DNA of 64,000 bases from contig NC_133770.1 in assembly GCF_003597395.2 (NCBI RefSeq), positions 35,540,428 to 35,604,427 on the forward strand, in the 5' to 3' direction. Every line of letters starts with the position of its first letter. Position 1 is the first letter of the stretch. Under the pieces are notes generated by a model. That model did not search any database, was not told the DNA's origin, and saw nothing but the letters and a program-made list of their open reading frames with translations. The stretch is from Chelonoidis abingdonii (taxonomy: Eukaryota; Chordata; Testudines; Testudinidae). A program made the position numbers and the translations under genes. Positions 5,369 to 38,635 of the stretch are shown here, piece after piece.

Positions 5369-5374
5369 TTTATT
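5369..5374 (-). terminator. Candidate polyadenylation signal of the PKS gene
   Basis: AATAAA on the minus strand, about 340 bases downstream of the PKS stop codon, in an AT-rich 3' flank. It is the nearest canonical signal I noticed below the stop. Such hexamers are common by chance in AT-rich DNA, so confidence is limited. Confidence 0.3.
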
Positions 5375-5713
5375 TTAGTATATTCATAATTTAAGATGCA
5401 GCTCAATCTATTATTCATTAATATCCAAACAGAAAAAATATACAGTTTACTTACATTTTATCTCATATACAAATCTGCAAAATAAAGATGTATATACATT
5501 TACTGTATTTTTACTAATACAAGTTAACAAAAAAATGTGTGCTGCACAGAGAAGGTATGAGTGCAGTACCAAAACTAAGCTGGTTTGGTGGTAAAGAACT
5601 AACTTATTATAATTCAAAGCTTTACTCTACCCAAAGAGTATGATGATTATTTTGAAAAATCACTAGGGTCCTAGTAATTCCAAAGTTACCAAATTACTAC
5701 ATGAAATGGGTTC

Positions 5714-6985
5714 CTATAACCAGCTTCCATCATCAATACTTTCTGCTACATGAGTTGTTTTCTCAAGTGACCCACGTTCATTAGAACTTTCTTCTAAAAG
5801 TCGTACTAAACTTGACATAGTTGTGTGAGGATCAAGTAGTTTCACAAGGGGGATCTCCACCCTTCTATCATGAAAGATACGATTCTGTAGCGTCATGGCT
5901 AACATAGAGTCCATGCCCAGTGATGCAAGTGATGTGTTCATTGTAAGATCACTCACATTTGTACTACTAAGATGACTCACCAGAGAGGTGATATAATCTT
6001 CAGAATTGACTGGAGATAAATTCTGAGGGGTTCCTTGTTCAGATAGCTCGAGCTTGCTGCCGAATTCTTCTGAAATGAGTGTACGGAAGCGACTTTTGAG
6101 TGATGCTATTCGAGAAAGAACATGATTGCTTAGCGTTCCAAAATTTAATTTTACTACAGCTTGCTGAGGATTATTCAGAATTAAAATTTTTTTAAGATAT
6201 TCATAAATTTCATGTACCTGCAGAATATCTATGCCTTTGGATTCCAAAATATTTTGAATCTTGTTTTGATTTACCAATAAGCCAAGATTCAAGGCACCCC
6301 AATTAATGGATTGTCCTGAAAGTCCACAATTCCTCCTGTAGTGGCAGAAAACATCCAGGAAAGAATTAGCAGCAGCATAGTTTGCTTGTGTTGAATTTCC
6401 AAGAAATGAAGTCACAGAGGAGTAACACACAAAATAGTCGAGTTCCTGCCCTCTGGTAGCCCGGTGGAGATTTATTACCCCTGCAACTTTGGGACTTAAC
6501 ACTTTCTCAAAGTGAGATAAGTTCAGAGCTTCAAGACATCCATCATGCAAAACCACAGCACTATGGAATACACCTTTGATTGGGCTCTTTGGAAAGATTT
6601 TGTCAATTGAACTCATAGCTTTCTCAACCTGAGAGCTAGAAATAACATTACACTGCAAACTGACTATTCTGCTCCCTTCACTCTGATTTTGCAAAGCCTT
6701 GATTTCTTCTTGTTTCTCACTGCTTGGATTGCTCCTTGAAAGTATTGCAATACAGCCCCCTCCATTCTGGGCTATAAATTTCACAGTTTCAAATCCAAGC
6801 CCAGTGAGCCCCCCTGCCACTATGTAAACCGCATTCTGCTTAAACATTTTCTTCTCTGCTTCATATACTGGTATGTCTGAAATCCTGTTGGTCTCCACAT
6901 CCCCTTTCAGCACAGCCAGTGGGATAGATTTGCAGGTGAAATAGGAGGTCGTGGCAGTGTTTGTACTTTCAAAGTACTCATTCTG
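5714..6985 (-). CDS. PKS terminal exon: ketoreductase and acyl carrier protein
   Basis: This is the clean last exon, with an acceptor TTCTGTTTTTCAG near 6986 and stop TAG at 5714-5716. The KR (about 190 residues) has the NADPH loop GGLTGLG, the Ser-rich strand CYSSVTSFLGN and the catalytic Tyr and Asn in QANYAAANSFLD. A VVLHDG segment sits where B-type KRs have LDD. The ACP (last roughly 90 residues) carries LGMDSMLAM with the phosphopantetheine Ser. The protein ends about 63 residues after that Ser with no thioesterase or other release domain, as in vertebrate AFPKs of the fish and parrot PKS type. The open frame extends upstream to 7030, but the tract before 6985 looks intronic or damaged, so the exon start is uncertain by some tens of bases. 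Confidence 0.9.
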   Translation of the reverse strand, partial: QNEYFESTNTATTSYFTCKSIPLAVLKGDVETNRISDIPVYEAEKKMFKQNAVYIVAGGLTGLGFETVKFIAQNGGGCIAILSRSNPSSEKQEEIKALQNQSEGSRIVSLQCNVISSSQVEKAMSSIDKIFPKSPIKGVFHSAVVLHDGCLEALNLSHFEKVLSPKVAGVINLHRATRGQELDYFVCYSSVTSFLGNSTQANYAAANSFLDVFCHYRRNCGLSGQSINWGALNLGLLVNQNKIQNILESKGIDILQVHEIYEYLKKILILNNPQQAVVKLNFGTLSNHVLSRIASLKSRFRTLISEEFGSKLELSEQGTPQNLSPVNSEDYITSLVSHLSSTNVSDLTMNTSLASLGMDSMLAMTLQNRIFHDRRVEIPLVKLLDPHTTMSSLVRLLEESSNERGSLEKTTHVAESIDDGSWL

Positions 6986-7107
6986 CTGAAAAACAGAATA
7001 TGATAGGTTTTTAAATTGTTTCATTTGCATTGATTTGATCCATCTGTGGACAGCCCTTAGGGACTGCTTCAGAGATGCTTTCTGAAAGATACTGAATTAA
7101 CACAGGT

Positions 7108-8440
7108 GCCAAAAATAGATACTAATCTGAAGTACTTAAAGGCACTTTTGGACTCTGAGACTACTCATCACGATGCCAACCGAGCTCTGCAAAAATGCAC
7201 TGGAACTAAAGCACACCATTGTTTTGTGCTCTATATAGGTTTTAAGCCTGGGACCTAGGCATTGAATTGGGTGTTGTCGTTGTTCAAACTGTAAATCAAG
7301 GATGATTTGGGTTTACAGCTCTTCGATTTGCTTGTTGATGGATGTTCAAATAGGTCATTAGCTTCTTACGATCAAACTGGTACCTGGGAAATGCTGTGGA
7401 ATACTTTGTACCCTTCATAAAAGTGATGCCAGTCAGGATTATATCCGTTAACAAATCCTGCAAGGCTAGAAGAGTCTGATATTCTTTTTCAGTTTGCAAG
7501 GAGGACGAACTCTAGTTCTTTGCTAGCGTTTCCATTATTACTCTGTATGCTCTTCCTGGGCCTATTTCAACCAACACAACATTATCCTTTTCTTTAGCTG
7601 AAGTCACTATGGCCTGTGTGAAAGCAAGATCTCGAGCATGTCGGGCCCAGAACTTGCCTGTAGTGAAATCATCTGCAGAAGCACCTTCCAGTCAGTGTTG
7701 AAATACTTCATTTGGCTTCTGTTTTTCAAATATTGTAATGCTCACCATCTCTTTATATTGGATCCATCATGTGGCTGTGGTATGCAGCTGGACATGTAAA
7801 CATGAAGAATATGTCTCTCTTGCTGAACACTTGAGCTAGTTTTTCTGAAGGGCATCACAGAGTCTGCATCTCCGACAAGTACAGGAAGAGGGCTGTTAAA
7901 AGCTGCAATGACACCTTCCCGAATACAGGCCAAGGGTTCTGATACTTCTTGAACAGGACGGTTACCACTACCACATTCTGCCTCCGGTAACCTTCGCCTG
8001 TACCTACTCCTGTGAAAATACTTTGACGGCATCTTAAGGGAAAGAAACCTCCCAATGGGGCAGAACTTCTCCAACTGAATGGCCAACAGCAGCACGGGCT
8101 TAATTCCCCAGTGTTTTCAGAAGAGAAGTTAAGGCTACTGGGAGAAGTAAAAAGAGTGGGCAATTTTGCTGGAGAAATCCTCAATTCACCTTCCGTTAAT
8201 CAGGAGGCTGATGGGTAATATTGCTGAATAACTTTCTATTTCTTTACATTTTTATTTGAATACTGCTCTGAACTCAAATATGTTTGAGATCCCTTTGAAA
8301 TTTACTCCATTAGCACGAACACAAAACTAGTTGTGGAGTCATCTTTGACGGAGTTATTTCTGTTTTAGTGCTATGCAACTTGTTGGTGTAAATGTCGAAG
8401 GGGGTTCTAATAGTACATATCTCGAATCACTCTGTAAGTT
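7108..8440 (-). pseudogene. Duplicate of the AT-DH segment inserted before the KR exon
   Basis: This stretch repeats 9184-10490 in the same orientation and order: AT entry strand, GHSVG (8084-8070), AYHSHMMDP near 7775-7755, the QTEKEYQTLLALQ helix near 7500, the AFPRYQFDRKKLMTYL linker near 7400, and the beginning of DH, ending at GTGCCAAAAATAG (7108, equal to 9184). Differences from the other copy are mainly 1-10 base deletions. It keeps the YHSH motif that is shifted in the other copy. Below 7108 the sequence runs into PVLIQYLSESISEAV and a broken frame toward the KR exon. It is probably an assembly duplicate or a fragment of the paralogue, not a second module. Confidence 0.6.
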
Positions 8441-8740
8441 ATTTTTTGAGTGCTGGAGGCTTATTCAAGTTTGTCAGAGGACACAATGACAATGAACTGG
8501 GTGCTCCCTAAACTTCTATGGTCTGAGCGGAATATTTCTTTCCACTTATTTTCAAAGAGCAAAGTCATTGTCTCGGGGGATGTTGGCTTCATAAAAGTGA
8601 TCCAAACATTTCAGTTTCTGCCAAACAGAGCCATGTTTATCTGCAAGCATCAAACCTCTAAGTAGTTTCAGCAGTCGATTTGCTTGTTTTCAAATATTTA
8701 TCATTTCCTCCTCCAAGGTCTGAAAAACTACAAGGCTGCC
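8440..8740 (-). CDS. PKS post-DH segment
   Basis: On the minus strand it continues from the DH with an AAFPSGIGSLVVFQTLEEE-like segment (in pieces) and YLKTSKSTAE, then LFENKWKEIFRSDHRSLGST and QFIVIVSSDKL near 8560-8470. The W-K-E segment resembles the start of the structural region after DH in FAS and AFPK proteins. A matching but noisier copy lies at 17990-18375 and carries on into ER-like sequence. Here it is instead followed at about 8440 by a second copy of AT and DH. The real gene presumably continues into the ER-like region, which is missing at this point. Confidence 0.6.
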
Positions 8741-9600
8741 TATGCCAGAAGGAAAGCTGCTCTGGTCTGGAAAGTTGTTGTCGTCATGAAGTGGTCATCT
8801 GTAGAAACAGTCTAACAGCACTGGATGGATACAGTAGTCAGACATCTCTTCTCTTGTCTCTCTGTTCACCTTTATGGTGGTTATAGCTTCCTTTAGCTCT
8901 TCACAATAAAAACATCACTTAACTGTCCTGAACGTGGACCATATTGAAATCCAACCTGAGATAGTGTTTTCATACACCTCATTGGCTGTAACTACTGATT
9001 TACACCTTTGAAAGATGTCTTGAAAGGAGATGCTGTTTTCTTCCACTGCAGCTTCAGACTTCTTGGTAATTTGTCCTGATGCATAAACTGCAGCTGAGGA
9101 TGACAGGATTTTGAAATCTGTCACATTTTTTTGTGATGCCAATTCTATCTTTAAAACATGGTAATTTTTGTTTAAAAACACATGGTGCCAAAAATAGATA
9201 CTAATCTGACAAGTACTTAAAGGCACTTTTGGACTCGAGCTACTCATCACAGATGCCAAACCGAGCTCTGCAAAAAATGCACTGGAACTAAAGCAACACC
9301 ATTGTTCTTGTGCTCATACAAATAGGGTGTTAATGCCTGGGACACTAGGCTTTGAATTCGGGTGTTGTCGTTGTTCAAACTGTAAATCAAAGGATGATTT
9401 GAGTTTACAGCTCTTCGATTTGCTTGTTGATGGATGTCCAAATAGGTCATTAGCTTCTTACGATCAAACTGGTACCTGGGAAATGCTGCTGGAATACTTT
9501 GATACCCTTCATAAAAGTGATGCCAGTCCAGGATTATATCCAGTTCAAAACAAATTCCCTGCAAGGCTAGAAGAGTCTGATATTCTTTTTCAGTTTGCAA
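8740..9600 (-). CDS. PKS post-AT linker and dehydratase (DH) domain
   Basis: After the AT comes a linker with AAFPRYQFDRKKLMTYLDIH, the Y-x-W/FxRK-type post-AT motif. The DH first half-fold follows with YEHKNNGVALVPG around 9320-9285, fitting the DH active-site HxxxGxxxxPG, then AFFAELGLASVMSS. The second half contains DFKILSSSAAVYASGQI, GFQYGP near 8935-8950 and IHPVLLDCFLQM at 8830-8790, where HPxxLD carries the DH catalytic Asp. Both catalytic elements are thus present, suggesting beta-hydroxyacyl dehydration. One base is missing just after the VP of the HxxxGxxxxP motif (near 9284), and other indels occur, so no continuous frame spans the domain. Confidence 0.72.
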
Positions 9601-10555
9601 GGAGGACAGACTCTAGTTTCTTTGCTAGCGTTTCCATTATATACCTCTGTATGCTCTTCCTGGCCTATTTCAACAACACAACATTATCCTTTTCTTTAGC
9701 TGAAGTCACTATGGCCTGTGTGAAAGCAACAGGATCTCGAGCATGTCGGGCCCAGAACTTGCCTGTAGTGAAATCATCTGCAGAAGCAACCTTCCCGTCA
9801 GTGTTGAAAGTCACTTCAATTTCCGGCTTCTGTTTTTCTAAATATGTAAATGCTCCACATCTCCTTTATTATTGGATCCATCATGTGGCTGGGTATGCAG
9901 CTGGACATGTAAAACATGAAGAAATATGTCTCTCTTGCTGAACACTAGAGCTAGTTCTTTCTGAAGGGCACTCACAGAGTCTGCATCTCCAGACAAGGTA
10001 CAAGAAGAAGGCTGTTAAAAGTGCAATGCACACCTTCCAGAATACAGGCCAAGGGTTTCTGATACTTCTTGAAACAGGGACGTTACCAACTACCAACATT
10101 CTGCCTCCGGTAACCTTCGCCTGTAACCTACTCCTGTGAAAAAAATACTTTGACGGCATCTTCAAGGGAAAGAAACCCTCCATAATGGGCGGCAGCAACT
10201 TCTCCAACTGAATGGCCAACAGCAGCCACGGGCTAATTCCCCAGTGTTTCAGAAGAGAAGTTAAGGCTACCTGGAGAGTAAAAGCAATGGCTGGGCAATT
10301 TCTGGCCTGGAGAAATCCTCACATTCACCTTCCGTTAAATCCAGGAGGCTGATGGGTACATATTGCTGAAATAACCTTTTATTTCTTTACATTTATTCTC
10401 TGAATACGCTCTGAACTCAATAATGTCTTGCAGATCCCTTTGAAATTTACTCCATTAGCACAGAACACAAAAACTAGTTGTGGAGTCATCTTTGACGGAG
10501 TTATTTCTGTTTTAGTTGCTAATGCAACTTGTTGCTGTAAATGTCGAAGAGAGTT
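9600..10555 (-). CDS. PKS acyltransferase (AT) domain
   Basis: This domain loads malonyl-type extender units. The segment opens with PQLVFVFCANGVNFKG, the AT entry strand (normally FxFxGxGxQxxGM), then a TLQVALTSLLKHWGISPVAA-type helix assembled across small frameshifts, and GHSVGEVAAAHYGG at 10217-10203 with the catalytic Ser. Later pieces are GRMLVVGNV, an FNSPSSCT-type loop, SGDADSVSALQKEL, FWARHARDPVAFTQAI (the FWxxxxRDPVxF motif) and the C-terminal YQTLLALQG. The YHSH specificity-loop motif is shifted here near 9885 but intact in the duplicate at about 7770. Single-base deletions break the frame at several places. The domain call is secure; the exact protein is not. Confidence 0.75.
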
Positions 10556-11305
10556 TGTAACAAATGCTTTTCTGTACTTGTAATTTACATTGCTTCTTCT
10601 ACAGGCAGATGTATAGGCCAGATTTGGGAGAGTTACTGAGTTGCTTATGTTTAACTGCTCCGCTGTGTCTTCCATTGTCAATTTGAGGATTTGCCTGAAG
10701 CCGCAGAGAGTACAAATAATTCAATCGGTCGTTTAAAAGAGGGAAGAACCTGTGTTTGCTTGAACTGTCTGACACAACATGGGCATTGGTTCCCCCAAAT
10801 CCAAAACAGTTGACACCAGCTACTCTTCCAAATTCTCTCGACTCTTCCAATTTTTTCTACAGTCGTTGGAATTGATAAATTTAATTTCTCTGTATTTATG
10901 CTACTAATAGCCTCTCTGTAATGCAAAGATGGAACAATCGTTTCATGGTGCATCATTAAAAGAACTTTAATTAATGCAGCTGCCCCAGCAGCTGATTCAG
11001 CATGGCCAACATTCCCTTTAACAGAACCAATCTTTAGAACAGGCATTGTAGGAGATCTGTTATTACCAATGAACAGATGCTACCTAGGTTCTCTGCTTCT
11101 GTAGAATCTCCAGCAGGAGTTCTGTGCCATGTGCTTCAAATACTGCACAACTGATGGTCAACATGAGTCCAGATAAAATGCTGCGTAGTAATTTTTCCTG
11201 TGCTGTCTGAGATGGTTTTGTGATTGGAGTCACGGATCTACCATTCTGATTGACTGCACTGATGTTTATAAACTCCCCATATCTTCTGCTGTGGTCTTCT
11301 AGTGC
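10555..11305 (-). CDS. Second copy of PKS exon 6, KS C-terminus continuing toward AT
   Basis: The acceptor matches that at 19114. Most of the KS C-terminal half is readable in pieces: [20 protein letters not shown] is intact; the HGTGTPAG motif is broken by small deletions near 11130; the GFGGTNAH region is shifted near 10790. Unlike the 18.4-19.1 kb copy, it continues past KAFV into [18 protein letters not shown] and the AT, so this copy shows the natural exon continuation. Substitutions against the other copy are rare (for example, TAGCCTCTC against TATCCTCTC), while indels are common. That pattern suggests uncorrected sequence of a near-identical gene. Confidence 0.65.
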
Positions 11306-11591
11306 CTGTTTCAGAAGAAGGAATTGATGTATGGTATTATTGGGATTTTTACAATATATAGAATACCACAAAAGCAAGAGCAGATAGAACACTTATTTAA
11401 CTGTTCAATGTACTTTTTTTTCTTACACAAAGACGAGTGCCTAAATATTTAGCCTGGATATTAACCTCACAGTAGAAGAGTCCAGAGTTGTGAATATGTC
11501 CTCCCATAAGAGGACATATTAGAATGGGAATTGCCACACTCCTGGTTATCTGGAAAATCTTATTTTTGCAAGCTCTGTGAAATGAACCTAC

Positions 11592-11773
11592 CTTTTTTAG
11601 TGGCTTCAGTAAAAGAACACCGCAGCCTTCTCCCCTTCATAACCATTTGCCTTTTAGTAAAGGGCATACCCATCCCCTCAGGAGAGATCATTTTTGCTTT
11701 TACTCAGAGATACGAAGGTGCGGGGGATCTATAATGCAGTTCACTCCTCCACACAGAGCCGCTTCACAATCTC
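11592..11773 (-). CDS. Second copy of PKS KS exon 5
   Basis: It has the same splice borders as 19402-19583 (acceptor ATCACAG side at 11773, donor AAAAAAG|GTAGG at 11591). The sequence is nearly identical apart from a few substitutions and single-base indels that break the frame (for example, an extra base in the run near 11698). It encodes the same GGVNCIIDPRTF and GEGCGVLLL segments. It belongs to a tandem second copy of the KS 3' half that runs into the AT. Whether it is a paralogue, the other haplotype or an assembly duplicate is not settled. Confidence 0.6.
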
Positions 11774-12174
11774 CTGTGATAAAAGAAATGTGTGACTGTT
11801 TTCCATCTTCTGTACATCTCTACAGATTTACATTAACACGCTGTAGTAATAAACTGAATTGACAGCATTACCATTGCTGATAAAATGAAAGAATTTATGG
11901 AAGATTATAAAAACAGAATTGACCACTGAAAGTTCTTAGACATATTCAGACTTTCAGGGCTGAACCCAACAGATGGTAAAATTCTCAGTGTTTGGAATTG
12001 GCCTGAGCAGAACAGCAGAATATTAGTAGAAGTCAGTGAGGTAGTAAACATTCTTCGTCTAAAAAAATAAAATAAAAAAACCACCTCAACGCTCCATGAA
12101 TCATGATAGTATGATAGGGCAGAATGGCAGATACTAAACAATTTCACAAGTTCCTAAAATGGAAAGCTTTTTTG

Positions 12175-13385
12175 ACAAATGCATCCCCATGTTCACACCC
12201 TACACACTATTGTAATAATCTTTGTGCAAATATGCCTTGTGAGGTATCATTTGAACTAATAATTCATGAGTCAATAATATCATGGTGAAATTTAGGTAGC
12301 AACCTTATATGTAAAGTTTTATGAATGCCCCAAGAATATTGGTTGTGGCACATGTTCAAGCCCACATAGCCCAGTTAGGCAGAACTGGTCAAGTAGGTCC
12401 TCTCTTAAAACACAGGAAATGTGTGTTTACCTCACTTTACAGATAAGTAGTAAAACTGGATCCTTGAGGCAGTAAGGCAGGAGAAGGAAATTTGCTTTTT
12501 ATCAAACAATAGCATGAAATGTCTTTCATGATGAGACTCCTTGTTTCCTTCTTCACATCAAGAATGAACTTTGTCTAGAAGGGAAAAACCTCAGGGAAAA
12601 TGCCTTTCAAAGGGTGACTGAACTATAATATCCCAAAGCAAAAACATCTCAGTTATCCCTCCTTATCCATCTCTCTTCTCCTTCACCCCTAAGAAGACAA
12701 AAGAATAGACCTTTGGGGCAGATCGTGGTGAGATTTTGGTCAGCGATATTACTGGAATTATGTGGTAAGGGACTTCACCCTTGAATCAGTCTAGTTTGTT
12801 AAATGTTTATCTCTATTTCTTTTGTAACTACTTCTAACTTTAATGCTTAAACTTGTACTCATTAAAATCTCTCTCTTTGTATTAAATATACTTATTTTAT
12901 TATTTAATCAAAAAACTAATCAGTGTTTTGAATGGTTTTTTGGGTAACTCCCCATTAATTTAAGTGGTAAATTGCTGTATGTTTGATCCCCTTAGAGGGC
13001 AACAGAACCTAATATATCTGGACTATCAAGAGAAGTCTGGGCAGTGAAGAAACAAATATTTTTTTAGGGAAAATCCAGGTTGACTGGGATTGTAGTGGAG
13101 TCCCCCCTGCAATGTGGTAAACAATGGCTTTGGTAGAAGTCAGAGTGTGACTGGAGCTCGCTGGCAAGTTGCAGCTATACACAGACAACCAGGTATGAAC
13201 CTGCATGCTATTTTTCTGTTTGTGAGGGGCCCAGGTTGGGTGCTGCAGCAGCAAAAGCATTGTGAGGCATCCCAGGTTACAGGGCAGGAAGTTACACAAC
13301 CCCCTCATTGATCTGGATTGCACTGCAGAATGTCATAACTCAAACATTTCTGGCTGCTGATAATCAGTGAGAGTGACTAGCAATT
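12175..13385 (+). mobile_element. LTR-like insertion in the second-copy KS intron
   Basis: The intron of the second copy aligns to the clean intron up to about 12170 (GACAAATG) and again from about 13385 (CAATTGGTGTGTTGCCTGTCACAGG, compared with CAATTGCTGTTGGCTGTCACAGG near 19997). About 1.2 kb between those points has no counterpart in the clean copy. It contains blocks shared in reverse with the LTR-like element at 42472-43895, such as TATGCCTTGTGAGGTATCATT, and an AT-rich poly(A)-signal-like region near 12870-12900. It therefore looks like a transposable insertion that marks the second copy. The exact ends are blurred by the noisy sequence. Confidence 0.55.
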
Positions 13386-14550
13386 GGTGTGTTGCCTGTC
13401 ACAGGAAATCAAGAGTGCAAAGAGTCTGGGGCAAGTCACTTTGGTATGGTTAAAATGGAATGCTTTTAGTCCTTACCGCTGTGATATAGTCAATTCTCTA
13501 GTACGTACCTTATAACGTGAGCAGTTTAACTTTGCTGAGCATCCTAATTTATTTTGCTTTATTCTTTAGGTCCGTACCTTGGTTAACTGCTTTCGAGGCG
13601 TATGCAGCAAAACTCTCTTCTTTTCCTCTCTCCGTTGTTTCTTATTATTTCGTTTTTTTTTTGTGTTGAGAGAGATCTGTTTTGCTTGCATTACGCCTGC
13701 AGAGTTAACAGGTTCTGGGACTAAAAAGTAAATAAGCATTAATAGGAGTTGCTACGCAATTAACTGCTAAGGTATATAGGTCAGTACTAGAATTTGACTA
13801 ATATCCAGGTGTACGGACTAAAGCATTTGCATTTTACATTACCAAGTGACACAATGAACTTTTGCTCTTGGTTCCTGTGACAGCAACACCAATTGCTAGT
13901 CACTCGTCAGATTTAATTTTTTTTTTCCAGCAGCATGAAGTTTGAGTTCATTCTGCAGTGCAATCCAGATCAATGGGGGGTGTGTCACTTCCTGCCCTGA
14001 ACTGGGAGCTACAATGCTTTGCTGCTGCGCACCAACGGGCCTCACAACGAAAATGCATGCAGGTTATACCCTGGTTTTCTGTGTATGCTGCAACTGCCAG
14101 CACGCTCAGTCAAACTCTGACTTTACCGCCTTGTTTACCAATTGCAGGGACTCACTACATTTCCAGTCCTGGGATTCCTAAATATTTTGTTCTTCCTGCC
14201 GGACTTCTCTTTGATAGGCCGTATATTAGGTCTGTTGCCCTCTAAGGGGTAATACAGCAATTTCACCTTAATGGAGTTTACCCAAACCATTCACAACACT
14301 GGATTAGTTTGATTAAATATATAAGATTAATTACAAAGAGAGATGATTTTAGTGAGTACAAGTTTAGTTAAGTTAGAAGTGGTACAAAGAAATAGAGTGA
14401 TGGGGGTATTAGATCGTTGTTTGGCTCCCTTACACATAATTCCAGTATACGGTGACCAAATTCCAGGAGCAGAGGTCGGCAAGGTGCTTTCGTGTTGTGG
14501 TGTTGTAGGGTGGAAAGGAGAGAGAGGATGGATAGGAGTATATTGTCTGG
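12650..14550. repeat. Long imperfect inverted repeat (hairpin) with apex near 13650
   Basis: The left arm (about 12650-13640) and right arm (about 13665-14550) are reverse complements with frequent errors. Examples: TGCAGTGCAATCCAGATCAA near 13955 against its complement near 13310-13330; the GGGCAACAG block near 12998 against CTGTTGCCC near 14232; the CACATAATTCCAGTA block near 14434 against its complement near 12750-12770. The arms include the end of the KS active-site exon, intron and an LTR-like repeat. Palindromes of this kind, with near-adjacent arms and random errors, are typical of long reads in which the hairpin adapter was missed. A genuine inverted duplication is the alternative. 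Confidence 0.7.
13578..13625 (-). pseudogene. Partial second copy of the KS active-site exon end
   Basis: The donor-proximal end of the exon is recognisable on the minus strand: ACGCCTCGAAAGCAGTTAAC then CAAG|GTACGGAC, compared with GCCTCGCAAGCAGTTAAACAAG|GTACTGGG in the clean copy at 20220. The exon cannot be followed further because the palindrome apex at about 13650 interrupts it. It lies in the correct order upstream of the other second-copy exons at 11592-11773 and 11305. Confidence 0.55.
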
Positions 14551-14604
14551 ATATGTTCGTCAAAGAGAGAATAATCCTCTCGCTAACAAACATCTGCTTT
14601 ACAG

Positions 14605-14817
14605 GTCTTAGAACCCGAACATGAATCATCACAACAAGCAGTAACTGAAATAAACCATGTATAGGACTGGCTAGCATCAAAGCAATAGCTGCTAACAGAT
14701 CTTCATACACTTATAAATACCTGACTGACCATCCACTTTCCACGATACTGGCCTCTCAGTCATTCTTTTTGCTTTGGGCATTCACGCCCTCGCAGCAGTT
14801 AACCAAGGTAACTGGAC
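14605..14817 (+). pseudogene. Inverted noisy copy of the KS active-site exon
   Basis: On the plus strand the stretch starts after TGCTTTACAG, reads through ATCATCACAA and GCAGTAACTGAAATAAACCA, and ends CAGTTAACCAAG|GTAACTGG. It is a damaged sense copy of the minus-strand exon 20220-20423, with the flanking acceptor and donor also copied. Scattered indels and substitutions destroy the frame, including around the TACTGCC active-site codons. The following intron piece (AAATTAGGGATGA near 14835) also matches the clean intron in reverse. It is best read as part of an uncorrected inverted read. Confidence 0.6.
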
Positions 14818-15384
14818 TAAAAGTAAATAAAAAATAAATTAGGGATGAACGTAGTAAGTTACCAGGTATTTATGTGCAATGTCCTCACCGGAATTGACTA
14901 GTCACCCAGGCGCACCCAACATTTTGCCATTACCAAATGAAAGTTTCATCTCATTCCACCTATATACTTAGATACAGAGCTTTTATACGCACCGGTGACA
15001 GCTCAATCTATCCACGTCACCAAGTATCACAAGATTGCACAACTCACAAGATGAAGCGCTGTAGTCTGCCAATTCGTTCAAAATCACATTACTCAGATCA
15101 GAAGGGGTGATGTTTTTGTTTTGAAAAGACAGAGTATTTACCCTCAATGCTTCTATTATATGCTGCGCCTCACCATCAAGCCCATTCCAAACATTGAGAA
15201 TTTACCATCTGTTGGCTTCAGCCTGAAAGTTTGAATAGTCCGAATGCAACTTTCAGTCGGTCAGTTCTTTAATAATTCTCTGCAAGTCTATCATTTTATC
15301 ACTAAGGCATGTTAACAATCCATTTCTCACGCGTATTAGTAAATCTGCTAGAGCCGATGGAGTCACACAATTTCCTTTTCACCA

Positions 15385-15559
15385 TCGAGATGTGAAGCAG
15401 CTCTGTGTGCAGCGAGTGAACGCATCAGAGATCCCCCACCTTCGATCTCCTGAGTAAAGCAAAAATGATCTCCCTGAAGGATCAAGCTAGCCCTTTACTA
15501 AAAAGGCAAATATTATGGAAGGAGAAGCTGCGGTGTCTTTTACTAAACCACTAAAAAAG
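15385..15559 (+). pseudogene. Inverted noisy copy of KS exon 5
   Basis: The plus strand carries GTGAAGCAGCTCTGTGTG, AGTAAAGCAAAAATGATCTC and CTAAAAAAGGTAGGTTCC. These are sense-strand landmarks of the minus-strand exon 19402-19583, with its donor, separated by many small errors. No usable frame remains. It follows the 14605-14817 copy in the correct gene order, so the whole 14.56-16.57 kb block is an inverted copy of the 18.4-20.4 kb gene region including introns. Confidence 0.6.
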
Positions 15560-15827
15560 GTAGGTTCCTTTTCCAGAGCTGCAAAGAATCAAGATTCCAG
15601 ATAACCAAGGAGTGGCAAATTCCATCTCTAATATGTCCTCCTTAGGAGATGATCACAACTCTGGACTCTCACTGGAGGTTAATAATCCAAAGCGCTAAAT
15701 ATATTCATTACATATAAAGAAAGGTACATTAACAGTTAAACAGAATTTCTGTCGCCCTTGATCCTTCTTCTATTTGTAAACAATCCCAAATGACAATATA
15801 TTTTTCCTTTTTTGAAAACAGACTCAA

Positions 15828-16560
15828 GAAAGACTAAATACAGAATAGGGGATTATAGCACACATCAGTGCAAACTAAATCAGAGTGGAAGACTGTGAAC
15901 CTCAATCACAAACCATCTCAAACAGCACAGGAAAAGTTTACTAACGTAGCATTATCTGACAGTTGACCCATCATCTGCAGTATTGAAGCACAAATGCACA
16001 GAACTCTCTGAAGTCCTAACAGAACAGAGAGCCTAGTAGCATCATGGAAAAACAGATCCTAAAAGCCTGTTCATAAGATTGGTTCTGTTAAAGGAATTGC
16101 CATGCTGAATCACTGCCGGGCAGCTGCATAATAAAGTTCTTAATGAAGCAAACCATGAAACGATTGTCCATCTTGCATTACCCAAGAGGAATAGTACATA
16201 AATACAGAGAAATTAAATCATCAAATTCCAACCACGAAAAAATGGCAAAGTCCGAGAGAATTTGAAGAGTAGCTGTTCAATGTTTGGATGGGAACCAATG
16301 CCCATTGTGGTGCGAGACAGTTCAACGCAAAACACAGTTCTTCCGCCTCTTTAAACGACCGATGAATATTTGTACTCTCTGCTCTTCAAGATGCAAATCC
16401 TCAAATTGACAATGGAAGACACAGCGGAGCAGTTAAACAAATGCAACTCATAACTCTCCCAAATCGCCATACATCTGCCGTAGAAGAAGCCATGTAAATT
16501 CAAAGTACAGAAAACATTTGTGACTACTGATCGTATTCAGTCATGAACCGGATATCTTGC
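15828..16560 (+). pseudogene. Inverted noisy copy of KS exon 6
   Basis: Sense-strand pieces of exon 18376-19113 are recognisable on the plus strand: AACAGCACAGGAAAAG near 15923, ACCATGAAACGATTGTCC near 16150, and GACAATGGAAGACACAGCGG AGCAGTTAAAC near 16410. Error density is high, roughly one difference every five to ten bases in places, and is made of mixed indels and substitutions without codon bias. That argues against a coding paralogue and for raw-read noise. The block runs into unplaced sequence after about 16570. Confidence 0.55.
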
Positions 16561-16599
16561 TTGATCACTTCAATTAGGTATGAAACATTACGACTCACT

Positions 16600-17480
16600 G
16601 ATTACTCATGTACTAAAAGAAGGTCTCCGGAGAATCGAAAGATAGACTAAACCGTCTAGGACATTCCATCGTTACTGGAGGAAATAAACAAGGGCATTAC
16701 ACCGATTTAGACTTCCACTCATCGAGATTAGGTTTTGCAAGTATGTTCCACAGCCCGCATCCTGTGCTGTCAGAGCTGAGCACATTTGCATAACACTGAC
16801 TTTCTGGTCAGTAGAAAATAATGCCTAAAGTCCCACTGTGTCAATTTGCATAGCTCTTGGCAAATGGGTAACTTTTTGCGTATTACAATTTACTCATGTA
16901 GCCTCATAAAGTATGACACCACATAGGGGTACATTTCTAAGCATGAAAATTCTCGGATGTTGAACAAAACTGTCCCTGGAACCATGACTCTCACGACATA
17001 GCAAAACCGGATAACATGAATGCCACATGATCTCCCACCTTAACTTTTTCACTTCACTGCCTACTCGCAGTTACTGTGCCACTGAGTCCAGAGCTAAAGC
17101 TTATGTTTGTCTATTGCATATGAATTCCAATACATGTATTCCAAGTTACAGCTGAAACGCTAACCGGAAAATCGTTCTGAAGGATGCATACTTATCCTTT
17201 GAACTTCAACATTGTGATTTGCTAGCTGAGCAGTAATGGTATTATGGCTATTCAGCAGATAAATTTCACTTTGTAAGGATCTGTAGTGTATAAAGTGATG
17301 TCTCTGAGTTCTGAGAGACTTTGAAGTTGACTGTAATCCACCATTTTAATGGTGTGCGTCTGATTTCCGAAGTGTAAATTCTTCCTTGATGAATCCAAAT
17401 TTCTGGATGATCCTGTCCTTCGTACTTTACAATAAATCTGCTAAGCTGAGTGTCCAGTGTTATGGGAAGAGTATGTCAAT
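16600..17480 (-). pseudogene. Noisy ER-like segment of the PKS
   Basis: This is the only place in the window where enoylreductase-type sequence appears. On the minus strand, around 17080 down to 17000 and across two small frameshifts, it reads GLSGTVTA, then VGSEVKK, then KVKVGDHVAFMLSGFA. This is the GroES-like core of MDR-family enoylreductases (GxVxxVGxxVxxxKVGDxV). Upstream of it (17480-17230) are QLSRFIVKYEGQDHPEIWIH and ETSLYTTDPYKVKF, typical of the segment between DH and ER. The reading frame is broken repeatedly, like the rest of 13-18.4 kb. The NADPH loop is not convincingly visible, so ER activity cannot be judged; a degenerate ER is possible, as in other AFPKs. Confidence 0.5.
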
Positions 17481-17989
17481 CATCTGTAAATGTGATTTCT
17501 GGAACTTAACTATGCAGGTTCGTCATGCACACAACAAATCCGGTTAAGATGATTACCATTTCTTCTGTTGTTCTGTTACTGTACCTGTGACTTCTTGTAG
17601 ACTGCTAACTTACTCGAGAGACATTTTTTGTGCTCGTGCGTCATTCATTTGCCACCCACAAACTTACAGATTTTGAGGTCAGACTGATGGTTTTCCATCT
17701 CTATACCTCTCTAGCTAAATGTGTCACCACTTTGGTTGGGAACTCTGTCACTTTTGCTTAAATTCTGTTATTTCCCATCTACATTTGATGACTAGCCAAA
17801 GACTTACATTGGATATTCCTTTGCGTGACTCTTGTCTCTTTGTAAATTTGTGGGTCCAATATACTGAAATGTATTTGGGTCATTTCCGGGCAAATGGTTT
17901 CGGCAATGTTACCCTAACGATAGACAGTATGCATGAAATCACTCTGTAGTATGATATATCAGTCCAGCTGAAGTCGGTGTGTCCACACA

Positions 17990-18375
17990 TGTTATGCTCC
18001 ATATTACAAAACACAATGACTCTAGGTGCTTTCCCCTAAAACTGTCCTATGGTCATGACAACTGACGGCGGAATTTGCTTTCTTTCACCTTGATGTCAAG
18101 GACGCCCCGTACGATTCTGGTGCTTGCCCAGCCAGTTTGTATGAGTGTTAGCTTCATAAAAAGTTGAGCAGTCCGCACCCTCAACAGCCTCTCGTTCTGC
18201 ATCAAACAGAGCATTATGTATATGATGCTGTCTCTCAGAGGTCATCCAACAAAACGCGTCTACATGTAGTTCCAGTCAATTTGCTTGTTTTCACATATAT
18301 CAGTTACATTGCGATTCCTCCAAAGTCTGAAACTACAGGGTGCCGCTGGGATATCCTCAGAGAGAATCCATTAAC
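17990..18375 (-). pseudogene. Noisy PKS DH C-terminal and post-DH segment joined to the KS exon
   Basis: In the minus-strand orientation this stretch matches, with many indels and substitutions, the post-DH part of the gene seen more cleanly at 8480-8730: the CAAATTGACTGG block near 18260-18285, the QTLEE-type block near 18300-18330, and the block around AAATTCCGC near 18060-18075, which matches AAATATTCCGC near 8530. It directly abuts the KS exon at about 18376, skipping AT and most of DH. I read it as uncorrected sequence misjoined here; a deletion paralogue is the alternative. Confidence 0.5.
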
Positions 18376-19113
18376 AAATGCTTTTCTGTACTTGTAATTT
18401 ACATGGCTTCTTCTACAGGCAGATGTATAGGCCAGATTTGGGAGAGTTACTGAGTTGCTTATGTTTAACTGCTCCGCTGTGTCTTCCATTGTCAATTTGA
18501 GGGATTTGCCTGAAGCCGCAGAGAGTACAAATAATTCAATCGGTCGTTTAAAAGAGGGAAGAACCTGTGTTTGCTTGAACTGTCTGACAACAACATGGGC
18601 ATTGGTTCCCCCAAATCCAAAACAGTTGACACCAGCTACTCTTCCAAATTCTCTCGACTCTTCCCATTTTTCTACAGTCGTTGGAATTGATAGATTTAAT
18701 TTCTCTGTATTTATGCTACTAATATCCTCTCTGTAATGCAAAGATGGAACAATCGTTTCATGGTGCATCATTAAAAGAACTTTAATTAATGCAGCTGCCC
18801 CAGCAGCTGATTCAGCATGGCCAACATTCCCTTTAACAGAACCAATCTTTAGAACAGGCATTGTAGGAGATCTGTTATTACCAATGATGCTACCTAGGTT
18901 CTCTGCTTCTGTAGAATCTCCAGCAGGAGTTCCTGTGCCATGTGCTTCAACATACTGCACAACTGATGGGTCAACATGAGTCAGATAAATGCTGCGTAGT
19001 AATTTTTCCTGTGCTGTCTGAGATGGTCTTGTGATTGGAGTCACGGATCTACCATTCTGATTGACTGCACTGATGTTTATAACTCCCCATATTCTGCTGT
19101 GGTCTTCTAGTGC
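18376..19113 (-). CDS. PKS exon 6, KS C-terminal half and linker (truncated)
   Basis: The acceptor reads TTCTGAAACAG at 19114. It encodes [20 protein letters not shown] and then both catalytic-histidine motifs of the [22 protein letters not shown] and [20 protein letters not shown], followed by [16 protein letters not shown] and the KS-AT linker. The frame is clean for about 245 codons down to KAFVN near 18376. There the sequence switches abruptly to a noisy post-DH segment instead of continuing into AT, as the 10.6 kb copy does ([14 protein letters not shown]). The exon end is therefore an assembly or rearrangement junction, not a splice donor. The KS is otherwise complete across the exons at 35.4, 29.0, 21.6, 20.3, 19.5 and 18.4-19.1 kb. 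Confidence 0.88.
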
Positions 19114-19401
19114 CTGTTTCAGAAGAAGGAATTGATGTATGGTATTATTTGGGATTTTTACAATATAAGGAATACCACAAAAGCAAGAGCAGATAGAACA
19201 CTTATTTAACTGTTCAATGTACTTTTTTTTCTTACACAAAGACGAGTGCCTAAATATTTAAGCCCTGGATATTAACCTCACAGTAGAAGAGTCCAGAGTT
19301 GTGAATATGTCCTCCCATAAGAGGACATATTAGAATGGGAATTGCACACTCCTGGTTATCTGGAAATCTTATTTTTGCAAGCTCTGTGAAAATGAACCTA
19401 C

Positions 19402-19583
19402 CTTTTTTAGTGGCTTCAGTAAAAGAACACCGCAGCCTTCTCCCCTTCCATAACCATTTGCCTTTTTAGTAAAGGGCATACTCATCCCCTCAGGAGAGAT
19501 CATTTTTGCTTTACTCAGAGATACGAAGGTGCGGGGATCTATAATGCAGTTCACTCCTCCACACAGAGCTGCTTCACAATCTC
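19402..19583 (-). CDS. PKS exon 5, KS middle segment
   Basis: The acceptor reads TTTTACCACAG and the donor CTAAAAAAG|GTAGG. It encodes GDCEAALCGGVNCIIDPRTF, then a segment with SKAKMISPEGMSMPF and ANGYGRGEGCGVLLLKPLKK. This is the standard KS region between the active-site Cys and the first catalytic His: the GGVN, the S-x-x-x-M(L/I)SP-x-G motif, and the D/NGYxRGEGxGVxxLKPL motif. It is 182 bp, ends in phase 0, and joins the next exon at ALEDHSR. A second minus-strand copy (11592-11773) and a noisy plus-strand copy (15385-15559) exist. Confidence 0.9.
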
Positions 19584-19639
19584 CTGTGGTAAAAGAAATG
19601 TGTGACTGTTTTCCATCTTCTGTGCATCTCTACAGATTT

Positions 19640-20219
19640 ACATTAATACGCTGTAGTAATATTTGGAATTGTTAACATTGCCCATTAGTGATAAAATGAT
19701 AGAACTTGCAGAGAAATTATAAAAACAGAACTGACTCACTGAAAGTGCATAGACATATTCAAACTTTCAGGCCCTGAAACCCAACAGATGGTAAAATTCT
19801 CAATGTTTGGAATGGGCTTGAGTAGACAGCAGCATATTAATAGAAGCCATTGAGAGAGTAAACACTCTTGGTCTTTTACAAAAACAAAAAACATCCACCC
19901 CTTCATGAATCATGATAATGTGATTTGAAAGAATGGCAGACACTAACAAAGGCTTACATCTTTTATGGGTGCCAAAAATCAGTGATATTGTTTGACAATT
20001 GCTGTTGGCTGTCACAGGTGGTATAAAGCTCTGTAATCTGTTCTGGTGGAACTGAAGATGAAAACTTTCATTTTGGTAATGGCAAAAAACAAATGGTTTT
20101 AGCCCTTACCAGCTGTAACATTAGTCAAATTCCAGTGAGACACTGCACATATATACCTTAGTAACTTAACTACAGTATCATCCCTAATTTATTTTCTTAT
20201 TTACTTTTAGTCCCAGTAC
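19640..20219 (-). other. Intron between PKS exons 4 and 5 (clean copy)
   Basis: Non-coding AT-rich sequence between the 20220 donor and the acceptor at 19584. It contains no repeat insertion, unlike the corresponding intron of the second copy, which carries about 1.2 kb of LTR-like sequence. Confidence 0.6.
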
Positions 20220-20423
20220 CTTGTTTAACTGCTTGCGAGGCATAATGCAAAGCAAAAAGAAATGATGAGCAGGCAGTATCGATGGAAAGTGATGGTCCAG
20301 TCAGATTAAAAGTGTATGAAAGTCTGTTAGCAGCTATGCTTACTGCTAGCCCAGTCCCATCATAATGGTTTATTTCAGTTACTGCTCTGCTTGTGATGAT
20401 CTCATAGTCTCGGTTCATAAGAC
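20220..20423 (-). CDS. PKS exon 4, KS active-site exon (DTACSS)
   Basis: This exon carries the ketosynthase nucleophile. The acceptor reads TGTTTTTACAG and the donor AAACAAG|GTACTGG. It encodes LMNRDYEIITSRAVTEINHY, then the GxxxSxxxNRLSYxFNLxGPS segment and SIDTACSSFLFALHYASQAV. DTACSS is the KS active-site signature with the catalytic Cys. The 204 bp exon keeps phase 1 on both sides. Lower-quality copies of the same exon lie at 13578-13625 (minus, partial) and 14605-14817 (plus, noisy). This is the clean copy. The role is decarboxylative condensation of malonyl units with the growing chain. Confidence 0.92.
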
Positions 20424-20545
20424 CTGTAAAAACAGCAGACATGCTTCATGTTAGCGAGAGAGATTAAAACATATGATCAGATACAAACCTAGTGGTGTTC
20501 TTTGCTCTTGTAGTTTTATCATGTGCCACCCTACATCAGCACCTA

Positions 20546-21501: not shown

Positions 21502-21662
21502 CAACAAAAACCCCTGTTTTGCTGCCACTGACACGTTCCATCGTGACTCCTGCATCCTCCAGTGCTCTGTATGTGCATTCCAGGAGTAACTTTTGTTGAG
21601 GATCCATGCGCTCAGCTTCCATATCATTAATTCCAAACAGCTTGTTGTCAAATGTGTTAAAT
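21502..21662 (-). CDS. PKS exon 3, KS segment with MDPQQ motif
   Basis: The acceptor reads GTATGTCTTAG and the donor TTTTTGTTG|GTAAGC. The reading frame contains FNTFDNKLFGINDMEAERM, then MDPQQKLLLECTYRALEDAG, and ends TGVFVG. This is the strongly conserved KS stretch FDxxFFGIxxxEAxxMDPQQRxLLExxxxALEDAG, placed directly before the active-site exon. It is 161 bp, entering in phase 2 and leaving in phase 1. The intron above it (21663-28899, 7.2 kb) is mostly CR1 and LTR insertions; the intron below it is about 1.1 kb. Confidence 0.88.
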
Positions 21663-28899: not shown

Positions 28900-29053
28900 C
28901 CATCAATAAGTGCAGCTCGTGTCGTACATATTTTTCCTGGTTTGGTATCATCTGGATCATACCATTCTGTGGTATTGAATCTTTCTGGGGTTATTTCTAC
29001 GGTACAGTTTCTTCCTTCCACTAGTACTTGCCAGAAATTCTCGATTCCTTCAC
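28900..29053 (-). CDS. PKS exon 2, KS N-terminal segment
   Basis: The acceptor reads GATGCAACAG and the donor GATGG|GTAAGCC. In the phase left by the start exon it reads GEGIENFWQVLVEGRNC followed by a segment containing TPERFNTTEWYDPD and ending TTRAALIDG. This is the KS region after the FPGG loop: the E-x-FW-x-L-x-x-G-x-x helix, then the R-F-x-x-x-x-(W/Y)-Y-D-P-D segment. It is 154 bp and ends in phase 2, compatible with the exon at 21502-21662. A tRNA-derived SINE lies only about 45 bases upstream of its acceptor, and the acceptor's pyrimidine tract is weak (TTCTGTTTTAAAAAC), which is unusual. No frame errors are visible. Confidence 0.85.
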
Positions 29054-30721: not shown

Positions 30722-30879
30722 ACATATGCACTATTCCTGCTGAGTGACTGAGCATGCGCCGGCCAGGGGATGCAAGGAGGAACAGAACTTTCCATGCAAT
30801 TGCTGCTTCTGGCTGCTGCAGACCTGTAAGGAGACTGTCTTTCCTATATGCTCAGTGCTCCCAGTGTGTGATTTGAATG

Positions 30880-33540: not shown

Positions 33541-33802
33541 GAGGTTAATGCTTTGAGCCTAATCAAAGCCAATAAAGTCAATGGGAGAATTCCTGGGAAC
33601 TTCAATGGGCTTTGGATCAAGTCCTTTATTTGTCATAAGCAGGAAGTGACACAGTCAGTCACACTACTTCCCGGAGCAGTGAGACTTACAGTATTCACTT
33701 ATAAATGTCTTCTCTGAACTTAAAACATCAGGGAGTGTTCTAAATCTAAACTCAGATCCTCATTTAGTAGTTTGAACCTACTAACAATGCATTCTCTTCC
33801 AT

Positions 33803-34912: not shown

Positions 34913-35390
34913 AGATATTACTACATACTGCATGGTAGCACAAACTTACTATAGATACAGTAAGATACTGTAGTCACACGGAAGTTAATGCTTTGGGCCT
35001 AATCAAAGCCAATAAAGTAAATGGGAGAATTCCTGGGAACTTCAATGGGCTTTGGATCAAGTCCCTTATTTGTCATAAGCAGGAAGTGACACAGTCAGTC
35101 ACACTACTTCCTGGAGCAGTGAGACGTGTGCGATTATTGCTAGTTGTTAACTTACAAATGTCTTCTCTAAACTTAAAACATTGGGGAGTGTTCCAAATCT
35201 AAACCCAGATCCTCATTTTGTAGCTTGAACTTACTAATAATGCAATCCCTTTCATATGATATTACTACATATTGCACAGTAGTGCAAACTTACTGTAAAC
35301 ATCTTATCACACAGTAAAACAGAGAGGATTGAATGATGGCACTCTTTGATACTCTATCAGTATTGTGATTTGTATTTATTCAAAACTTAC

Positions 35391-35469
35391 CTCCGGGAAA
35401 ATTGCATCCTATCCCCACTATGGCAATTTCATCTCCAGTTGCCGTCATTTTTTCAAATCTATTCTTGAA
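35391..35469 (-). CDS. PKS exon with the start codon and KS N-terminus
   Basis: First coding exon of an animal FAS-like polyketide synthase. The acceptor is TTTTGCAG just above 35469 and the donor is GGAG|GTAAG at 35390. The ATG at 35446-35448 opens a frame reading MTATGDEIAIVGIGC and then NFPGG, the classical N-terminal strand of a beta-ketoacyl synthase (IAIVGIGCxFPGG). The upstream part of the exon contains an in-frame stop (TAG) if joined to the 38.6 kb donor, which supports this ATG as the start. The exon ends in phase 1, and the first base of a Gly codon is completed by GT at the start of the 28900-29053 exon. The start choice is fairly secure because AFPK and FAS proteins usually begin just before this motif. 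Confidence 0.8.
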
Positions 35470-35584
35470 CTGCAAAATACACTTTTAGATATCACATAAT
35501 TCAAATGAAAGTATATTTTTCTCATTAAATAAATATTCTTGCAGAAGTTGAACTTGCTATAATCACACACATCCAGACAAAGCT

Positions 35585-36850: not shown

Positions 36851-36859
36851 TGCATCAGT

Positions 36860-38577
36860 GATCTGTTAGTTAGCTTGACTACCATTAATTATACTGTCCA
36901 CCATTAATTCTTTATTGATCAAGTCCCATATCATCCACTCCATTAACTTGCCTGAGTTCAATGTTTTTAGTTGGTCTTCAGCTAGAGGGGCAGGAAGAGG
37001 CATCAAGTGATAACTTAATGGACACCTGGGCCTCACAAAGGGAGACAGTTCCTTCCGAAAGAAAGATTCACAGGGACTTCTGTGAAGGGGCATGAGCTGA
37101 AGTCTGCAGGTAAACAGACACCGAAGGAAGGCAGTCTGAGGGGTGAGTGCTCAATAGTGGAGCTGGGGGGGAAACTTCAGACTAGCTGACATAGGAGATT
37201 GAAGACAGAACCCAAAGGAAAGTCTGTTTTGTTGGATATTAGCTTGTGTTTTTCTTGCACCAAAAGGGATCTGAACTATACAATTCTCAGGTGGACAGCT
37301 GAGTTGCGCACAGCAACTGATGGTCTACAGGGTGCACTGGAGATAAAGACCCCAGAAACATTGCATCTTGATGTGCTGGGGCGCTATGGGAGTGAGTGTG
37401 CACCATAACAGGTGGTGCCTCCTTTCATACTGGCGGCAATAAAGGGCCACTACTGCCGCAAAAGTGGGAAATGTTGGCTAAAAGGGGGCATGCTGAGGGA
37501 AACAGCAGAGTGAGAATTCAACATTTCCCTTCAGAGGTGCCCACTGGTACACTCCCCATAATGCACTGGAAAATGCTGAAATTGTCTTTGTCCCAGTTCA
37601 GTAGCAGCGCTACCAGAGCATAGAGGAAGAAGTATTAACTATCTTCTGCTAGTATGACTCTCCTTGGATGCAATCAGTTGGACTGGTGCAGAAAAGAATA
37701 CTTGCCATCCACTTTTAATGGTTTTGTAGAATTCACTCCAATCTGCAGAAAACTAAGTCCCTTTAGTCTTTGTGCTTGTGGCCAGATTTTCAATGGGAGC
37801 CGCTGAGAGCAGCTTTTGAAAATCTGTCCAGAAAGATAAATTTGTTTTAACTGTTAATACTGCATTTCTAGTAAAAAAAAAAATTAGTAATGAAGACATT
37901 CAAACTCTGGGGGTCAGATTCTGACCTCAGTTACACCAGCGTAGAGCCAGAGAAACGTCACTGTCTGCAGTGCAATTATATCAAATTAACACTGATGTAA
38001 CTGAGATCAGACTCTGATGTTTTAGATCTTGTAGGTTGTTTATAGTTACAGTTTCTGATGTTTCTTTTTTTCTAATGTTTAAAGTTGGTACACTCCCTCA
38101 TGCTGAGTAGTCTCACAAATACTGTGGTGTAAGATGTTACCAAACTTGAGGAAGAGGGTCAGAATGTGGCCCTCCAAAAGTAAAAATCTGTTTTTATATG
38201 TGTCTATAAAAATTATTTTCTTTGTATTCTTTCAAAAATTGCCCCCTTATGAAGCCTGAAGATGTTCTCCCAGGAAGCAGAGAGAGACCTGACAATCGTA
38301 AAAATGGCAAATATTTTGTTGGTTTTGGTTTATAAAATATTATATAAAAATCTGGCCTCAATTTTTTGATCCAGTGAAGTTATATCCTTTTAAGCTAAAG
38401 CTGGAAAGTCTAGTATAGACACTAACAGAAAGCTACTTATAACTGATGGTTATTGTTAAACTAGAACCTACGTAGTGCATGAACAATTGCAATGGAAAAA
38501 TAATAGTCACAATTAAACATAATATATTTCAAATTATATAGCATTCTTGTCTCTTAAATGAGATATGTTGTTCTTAC
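36860..38577. other. PKS 5' intron, mostly unassigned
   Basis: No recognisable gene. 37910-38015 contains a palindromic repeat (TCAGATTCTGACCTCAGTTAC against GTAACTGAGATCAGACTCTG). Open frames at 37200-37620 have no known motif. Confidence 0.4.
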
Positions 38578-38605
38578 CTTGTTTCATTTCTCCTGAATGG
38601 CGTTA
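38578..38605 (-). other. Possible tiny non-coding first exon of the PKS gene
   Basis: A short stretch downstream of the TATA box ends with ATGAAACAAG followed by the donor GTAAGAAC. Splicing to the acceptor at 35470 would give a short upstream reading frame (M-K-Q-V-Q-E-stop) before the start codon at 35446-35448, so this piece would be 5' UTR. The exon is about 28 bases if transcription starts near 38605. Support is the donor, the TATA spacing and the strand. Confidence 0.35.
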
Positions 38606-38627
38606 AATGCTGATTTTCTTGAAAGCC

Positions 38628-38635
38628 TTTATATA
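38628..38635 (-). promoter_or_regulatory. Predicted TATA box of the PKS gene
   Basis: On the minus strand the sequence reads TATATAAA, followed about 20-30 bases downstream by TCAGCA-type initiator-like sequence (near 38605-38612) and then by a consensus splice donor at 38577. This spacing fits a TATA-driven promoter with transcription starting near 38605, about 3.1 kb upstream of the first coding exon of the polyketide synthase. The link to that gene is inferred from position and strand only; no transcript evidence is available here. Confidence 0.4.

Follow-up and report, generated by a model that had tools for sequence, protein, structure and literature searches.

The stretch analyzed here comprises 64,000 nucleotides of Chelonoidis abingdonii contig NC_133770.1 (positions 35,540,428 to 35,604,427 of the forward strand) and is referred to below as the window. 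Its minus strand carries a gene for a polyketide synthase (PKS) that has open reading frames at both ends: the 5′ part encodes the ketosynthase (KS) domain, and the 3′ part encodes the ketoreductase (KR) domain and the acyl carrier protein (ACP). Between them, at positions 18371 to 7099, lie frame-broken pieces of the KS, acyltransferase (AT), dehydratase (DH), and enoylreductase (ER)-like regions. Judging from its sequence, the gene very probably encodes a sauropsid member of the MuPKS/ApPKS/OlPKS family of vertebrate iterative type I PKSs, with uncorrected long reads mis-assembled between the two intact parts.

When spliced, the six KS exons (35448 to 18372) encode 500 amino acids without a stop codon; all five introns follow the common GT/AG rule, and their phases match. 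The spliced product is recognized by the Pfam model ketoacyl-synt (6.6e-83), and the main copy of exon 6 shows no frameshifts in a frameshift-tolerant alignment to a bird PKS. The catalytic Cys-His-His residues of the KS are present, as are the NADPH motif and Tyr of the KR and the Ser of the ACP, and the minus strand carries the DTACSS, EAHGTGT, GGLTGLG, YAAAN, and GMDS motifs that an earlier note on this DNA had listed for these domains. EAHGTGT of VEAHGTGTPAGD is found at 18948, and a further KS motif from that note is found at 18831 and repeated at 11016 on the same strand. An acceptor-like site lies directly 5′ of the ATG of exon 1, with the first coding exon beginning at 35448, which would allow for a further, untranslated exon upstream.

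The 3′ part is a single open reading frame (ORF), from 7096 to 5714, in which Pfam finds KR (5.3e-56) and PP-binding (7.8e-08). GGLTGLG, YAAAN, and GMDS are located at 6814, 6379, and 5917, respectively, and alignment to two relatives requires no frameshifts. Pfam lists no thioesterase in this ORF, which stops at 5714 after the ACP, just as had been claimed. An AATAAA hexamer, the usual polyadenylation signal, is present at 5374-5369. A splice acceptor near 7081 was considered as the start of this part and rejected, since the relatives align beyond it to 7093; for the same reason, positions 7096-7099 look like a join rather than an exon start.

Relatives of the KS were sought by scoring the 7,995 candidates that shared most words with it, and the best 120 of the 3,598 matches were listed; for the KR-ACP part, 7,998 candidates were scored and 39 were listed. 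Both searches covered proteins below a length limit, with full-length PKSs falling outside it. Among the listed KS relatives, the best with a named host are PKSs of birds, a lizard, a manatee, and many fishes with 56 to 80% identity, several of them matching the KS only in part. Identity is 80% over 65% of the query for a quail, 77% over 52% for a songbird, 76% over 66% for a lizard, and 72% over 82% for the manatee. The best named relatives of the KR-ACP part come from a gecko (63% identity, 96% covered) and a shorebird (70%, 77% covered). No entry named as turtle is found among the 120 KS or 39 KR-ACP relatives, many of which carry no host name. In a maximum-likelihood tree of the query and 29 of the 120 proteins, hand-chosen for named hosts and coverage, 20 vertebrate sequences (the query, 2 birds, 1 lizard, 1 manatee, and 15 fishes) fall on one side of a branch with 100/100 support and do not group with bacteria. 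The query pairs with the two birds (95/89), the lizard is outside that pair (100/97), and the manatee branches beside the sauropsids (94/85); the snail Lymnaea groups with three mollusc sequences. Such a placement would fit a turtle or a crocodilian.

The earlier note was right that this is a real vertebrate gene for a PKS-type megasynthase, as the splice structure and the KS tree demonstrate. A bacterial contaminant is ruled out by the same two lines of evidence, and a recent bacterial transfer is likewise next to impossible. The relative closeness of animal PKSs to bacterial PKSs, rather than to fatty acid synthase (FAS), in the tree discussed in PMC6334511 could be quoted in favor of a bacterial origin, but the exons are spliced with matching phases, and the KS is 72 to 80% identical to four amniote PKSs (266 to 409 aligned residues) and 60 to 68% identical to the fish sequences of the tree, compared to 42 to 47% for six bacterial ones. 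The label of animal FAS-like PKS (AFPK), which had been attached to this gene, is a different matter. The domain order is like that of animal FAS, and the sea slug AFPKs EcPKS1 and EcPKS2 are type I enzymes with a similar FAS-like order; however, the KS of AFPKs is FAS-like (PMC10764717, in the portion cited), whereas in a phmmer comparison of the present KS to PDB entries (best 60 of 153), 49 PKS-type entries precede the first animal FAS, at row 50. The best FAS scores 252.0 bits there, versus 363.5 bits for CurL, the best PKS matched in a single stretch, and up to 596.4 bits for PKSs matched in two. The CurL-like PKS C-terminal model also passes, if barely (27.4 against a cut-off of 27). This is a score comparison with single-sequence phmmer rather than with the published HMMs, and the 30-sequence tree that places the KS among vertebrate PKSs is made up of rows other than FAS and AFPK. 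The cited text of PMC10764717, a 2024 survey, describes AFPKs as absent from vertebrates and identified only in molluscs and arthropods. The AFPK label was therefore rejected on the KS scores and this published negative, and an AFPK at this locus appears highly improbable. The fish and parrot enzymes that had been named as vertebrate AFPKs, with roles in otoliths and parrot pigment, are treated as PKSs. The implied novelty does not hold either: PKS genes of Chelonia mydas (2), Chrysemys picta (2), and Pelodiscus sinensis (1) were already listed in 2015 in Table 2 of PMC4604110, and the tree in PMC6334511 includes reptile PKSs among the animal PKSs that stand apart from FAS. The gene thus belongs to an established family and comes from a group in which that family has been described before.

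Several of the relatives deserve a mention in their own right. The manatee protein (Trichechus manatus latirostris LOC111822330, P0001; 455 amino acids) matches the KS with 72% identity over 409 residues, whereas PMC10764717, as far as its cited part goes, reports PKSs in no placental mammal, so a placental PKS gene or its remnant would be worth attention. Relatives of the KR-ACP part are found in the frog Nanorana parkeri (P0127, 50% identical) and the ray Mobula birostris (P0128, 48%); Table 2 of PMC4604110 lists none for Xenopus. In the lizard Podarcis lilfordi (P0009), a 542-amino-acid model joins the KS directly to KR-ACP, and its listed domains do not include AT, DH, or ER; perhaps this reflects an annotation or assembly fault of a similar kind.

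The earlier note had read the whole locus as a continuous gene, probably KS-AT-DH-ER-like-KR-ACP, with all parts on the same strand and splice phases in agreement. This description is accurate for the KS exons and KR-ACP, but not for the middle, where the order is broken, copies are in excess, and one KS copy is inverted. Along the minus strand, the KS is followed by the ER piece, the inverted KS copy, the palindrome, a KS-AT-DH copy, an AT-DH copy, and KR-ACP (Table 1). In a self-comparison, the KS region 18372-19946 matches 10558-12137 with 93.8% identity and, in inverted orientation, 14572-16521 with 78.5%; a further copy of the AT-DH region 9177-10555 is present at 7099-8406, with 90.6 to 91.2% identity. 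When aligned to a bird PKS, exon 6 of the second KS copy shows 8 frameshifts; the first AT-DH copy (over 10558-8990) has 15, along with 2 stops, and the second AT-DH copy has 22, along with 3 stops. Frameshifts and stops together amount to 10.7, 10.8, and 19.1 per kb in the copies, compared to 0 in the main KS exon 6 and KR-ACP. The predicted catalytic motifs of AT and DH are indeed there, but only in frame-broken copies. GHSVG occurs twice on the minus strand (10217 and 8084), each time with the frame broken nearby and at different bases. HPVL of HPVLLD is found at 8827, whereas the other DH motif, given as HKNNGVALVPG, cannot be read in one frame; it reads HKNNGVALVPV owing to a frame shift. 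A stop before GHSVG in both AT copies was considered as a shared lesion and rejected, as the upstream coding sequence is in another frame and the breaks fall at different bases. Position 10557 was likewise rejected as a copy boundary: the main copy merely ends there, and the second copy continues into AT. One unfilled gap, of 155 N, is still present in the window.

Table 1. Features of the PKS locus, in minus-strand order
Feature	Positions	Strand	Basis
KS exon 1, ATG to FPGG, donor GTAAGT	35391..35448	-	Splice reading
KS exon 2	28900..29053	-	Splice reading; tblastn matches of fish and lizard PKSs
KS exon 3	21502..21662	-	Splice reading; tblastn with fish and lizard PKSs
KS exon 4, DTACSS with active-site cysteine (20280)	20220..20423	-	Splice reading, motif, tblastn
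KS exon 5	19402..19583	-	Splice reading; tblastn
KS exon 6, both active-site histidine motifs; ended by a mis-join at 18372	18372..19113	-	Motif, splice reading
ER-like region, GroES-like core; frame-broken, out of order	16545..17574	-	Alignment to three relatives
Inverted, error-rich copy of KS region 18374-20466, 78.5-80.3%	14572..16524	+	Self-comparison
Palindrome, 1,880 bp, center near 13598	12659..14538	.	Self-comparison
Intron 4 segment, 80.5% to main copy, 0.26 gap openings per substitution	11847..12141	-	Alignment
Second copy, end of intron 4 to exon 6, 97%, mainly 1-base indels	10557..11846	-	Alignment
AT and DH region running on from second KS copy	8407..10556	-	Frame display, bird PKS alignment
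Further copy of AT and N-terminal part of DH	7099..8406	-	Alignment
KR and ACP, uninterrupted frame up to the stop codon at 5716-5714	5714..7096	-	Pfam, relatives

The ER-like GroES core reported in the earlier note exists as a piece, but this piece is frameshifted and sits between the KS and its inverted copy. Its alignments to three relatives score 162, 323, and 414 across 4, 20, and 23 frameshifts, whereas 15 shuffles (five for each) score at most 57 and the opposite strand yields 45, 71, and 54. In the relative P0134, residue 228 is the last to match the ER piece and residue 236 the first to match the KR-ACP part; in P0123, the respective residues are 298 and 323. The sequence just before the piece (18344-17920) resembles the end of the DH copy (8740-8410) with 64% identity. 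The canonical NADPH motif of ER, searched for as a generally known pattern, is absent in all three frames of 17600-16500, although for this error-rich stretch that is weak evidence. The same pattern is absent in all eight relatives, P0142 included; of the seven examined for an ER stretch, five show it (P0134, P0123, P0139, and, weakly, P0133 and P0140) and two (P0143 and P0144) skip it. This would fit a polyene product.

The nature of the breaks was addressed by counting gap openings per substitution, with one scoring scheme for all pairs. This ratio is 2.89 for the AT-DH copies, 1.75 for the KS copy from 11846 on, 2.43 for the inverted KS, and 1.54 for the palindrome, compared to 0.14 to 0.31 for seven repeats and 0.06, 0.31, and 0.19 for three short palindromes (0.15 to 0.32 kb), which served as 10 control pairs from the same window. 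Under default scoring, with the KS copy left uncut at 11846, the four PKS pairs range from 0.47 to 1.85 and eleven others from 0.06 to 0.18. The palindrome is 74% alike to its own reverse complement, with 240 gap openings, 32 transitions, and 124 transversions (each difference entering these counts twice), a transition/transversion ratio of 0.26. In the description of PBJelly (PMC3504050, relevant passage), adapters are missed in ∼1% of PacBio reads, and an error rate of ∼15% is skewed to insertions. The stretch from 18371 to 7099 looks like a gap filled with raw long reads, one of them with an unrecognized hairpin adapter. Such uncorrected reads would have placed the copies of KS, AT-DH, and ER in the wrong order, one of them inverted, and added the palindrome through the missed adapter. 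Because the copies differ mainly by short indels, as raw long reads do, the breaks in AT and DH are most likely errors; and because the KS, AT, DH, ER-like, KR, and ACP pieces nearly tile one full gene, the gene is probably intact in the animal.

Alternatively, the middle could be a genuine cluster of degenerate PKS pseudogenes, produced by old duplications and an inversion, but this is very unlikely. Such a reading could draw on the broken frames near GHSVG in both AT copies (if at different bases), on the several PKS genes per genome listed for other vertebrates in PMC4604110 (Table 2), and on transition/transversion ratios that are unremarkable in three of the four copy comparisons; but the indel/substitution ratios exceed those of the 10 control pairs by factors of ∼5 to 48, the palindrome has its ratio of 0.26, and the flanking KS and KR-ACP parts are open. 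Some points do weigh against the raw-read explanation. The ratios of 1.15, 2.00, and 0.84 transitions per transversion in the other copies are not clearly apart from those of natural repeats (0.97 to 4.0). The whole KS copy with its intron segment kept has only 0.47 gap openings per substitution under default scoring, and the cut at 11846 was chosen after viewing windowed counts. The PBJelly comparison reflects the PacBio error profile, which may not be that of the platform or gap-filler used for this assembly. Finally, segment 12141-11847 diverges in an ordinary way, with 22 transitions, 21 transversions, and 11 gap openings in 292 columns (43 substitutions, or 47 in 300 columns with different ends). 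Since this intron 4 segment diverges ordinarily and an insert of ∼1.2 kb accompanies it, the assembled sequence likely also draws on a second PKS copy or on a structural allele.

A fuller version of this idea, in which an assembler collapsed and mixed the middles of two near-identical tandem or allelic PKS copies, possibly with gene conversion from ∼11847 on, is a real but lesser possibility, and it is compatible with read errors. Beyond the diverged intron segment, the stretch onward through exon 6 barely differs (12 substitutions in 1,300 columns). In addition, the second copy corresponds to the main one at 13612-13347 (20257-19962) and again from 12141 on (from 19949 on), so that its intron 4 contains an extra ∼1.2 kb, at 13346-12142, with no counterpart in that of the main copy; parts of this insert resemble 42816-42939, 43421-43553, and 55003-55128, i.e., repeats of the window. 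Two PKS genes each are listed for the painted turtle and the green turtle in Table 2 of PMC4604110, and PMC6334511 mentions two 98%-identical copies in chicken and quail. On the other hand, the window has one KR-ACP and one set of exons 1 to 3, the rest of the differences are read-error-like, and a chimeric join at 11847 would give the same pattern without gene conversion; either process may explain the likeness of exons 5 and 6. The more specific proposal of an adjacent PKS pair, with exons 5 and 6 homogenized by gene conversion, intron 4 ∼20% diverged and carrying a repeat insertion in one copy, and an assembly broken by the near-identity, is rather unlikely. If true, it would represent concerted evolution of vertebrate PKSs, like the chicken and quail pair.

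The gene resembles several known systems. For animal PKSs, PMC6334511 gives the order KS-AT-DH-ER-KR-ACP without a thioesterase, and the same paper reports this architecture, with an ER thought to be inactive, for ApPKS of the mallard and MuPKS of the budgerigar. The comparison covered the bird relatives noted above, whose KS identity of 77 to 80% over 52 to 65% of the query (best 120 of 3,598) is accompanied by 58 to 76% over 43 to 77% for four bird KR-ACP sequences, with a fifth covering 23%. ApPKS and MuPKS differ from the present enzyme in species and product, and AT, DH, and ER are readable here only through frameshifts. The PKSs of the three turtles belong to the same family by listing in Table 2 of PMC4604110 rather than by sequence. 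OlPKS of medaka and pks1 of zebrafish, which are needed for otolith formation according to the cited parts of PMC4604110 and PMC6531356, belong to the vertebrate PKS clade represented by the 15 fishes of the tree. By analogy to ApPKS and MuPKS, the AT would load an acetyl or propionyl starter and malonyl extender units on the ACP arm, the KS would condense them, and the KR and DH would reduce and dehydrate the product; the ER-like region would not reduce, and a trans-acting partner would release the polyene chain. In the data quoted from PMC6334511, ApPKS uses malonyl ∼64-fold better than methylmalonyl. A role of reptile PKSs in the egg shell is raised in PMC4604110, as a suggestion only.

The analysis corrects two errors that are prone to spread, namely, a vertebrate PKS called AFPK and an assembly patch taken as gene anatomy. 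The indel/substitution ratio and the long palindrome together offer an in-window signature of raw-read gap filling, and the clean KS and KR-ACP pair can be used for asking what reptile PKSs make.

Elsewhere in the window, a retroelement fragment with the RNase H-like domain of reverse transcriptase (6.3e-13) is found at 1586-2305 on the plus strand. Pfam searches of 10 further ORFs gave nothing beyond a sub-threshold SCAN fragment at 45386-45865 on the plus strand (24.2 bits against a cut-off of 27), and no Rfam family reached its gathering score. The short palindromes at 43566-43882, 41209-41439, and 39370-39518 show ordinary divergence and are perhaps remnants of DNA transposons.

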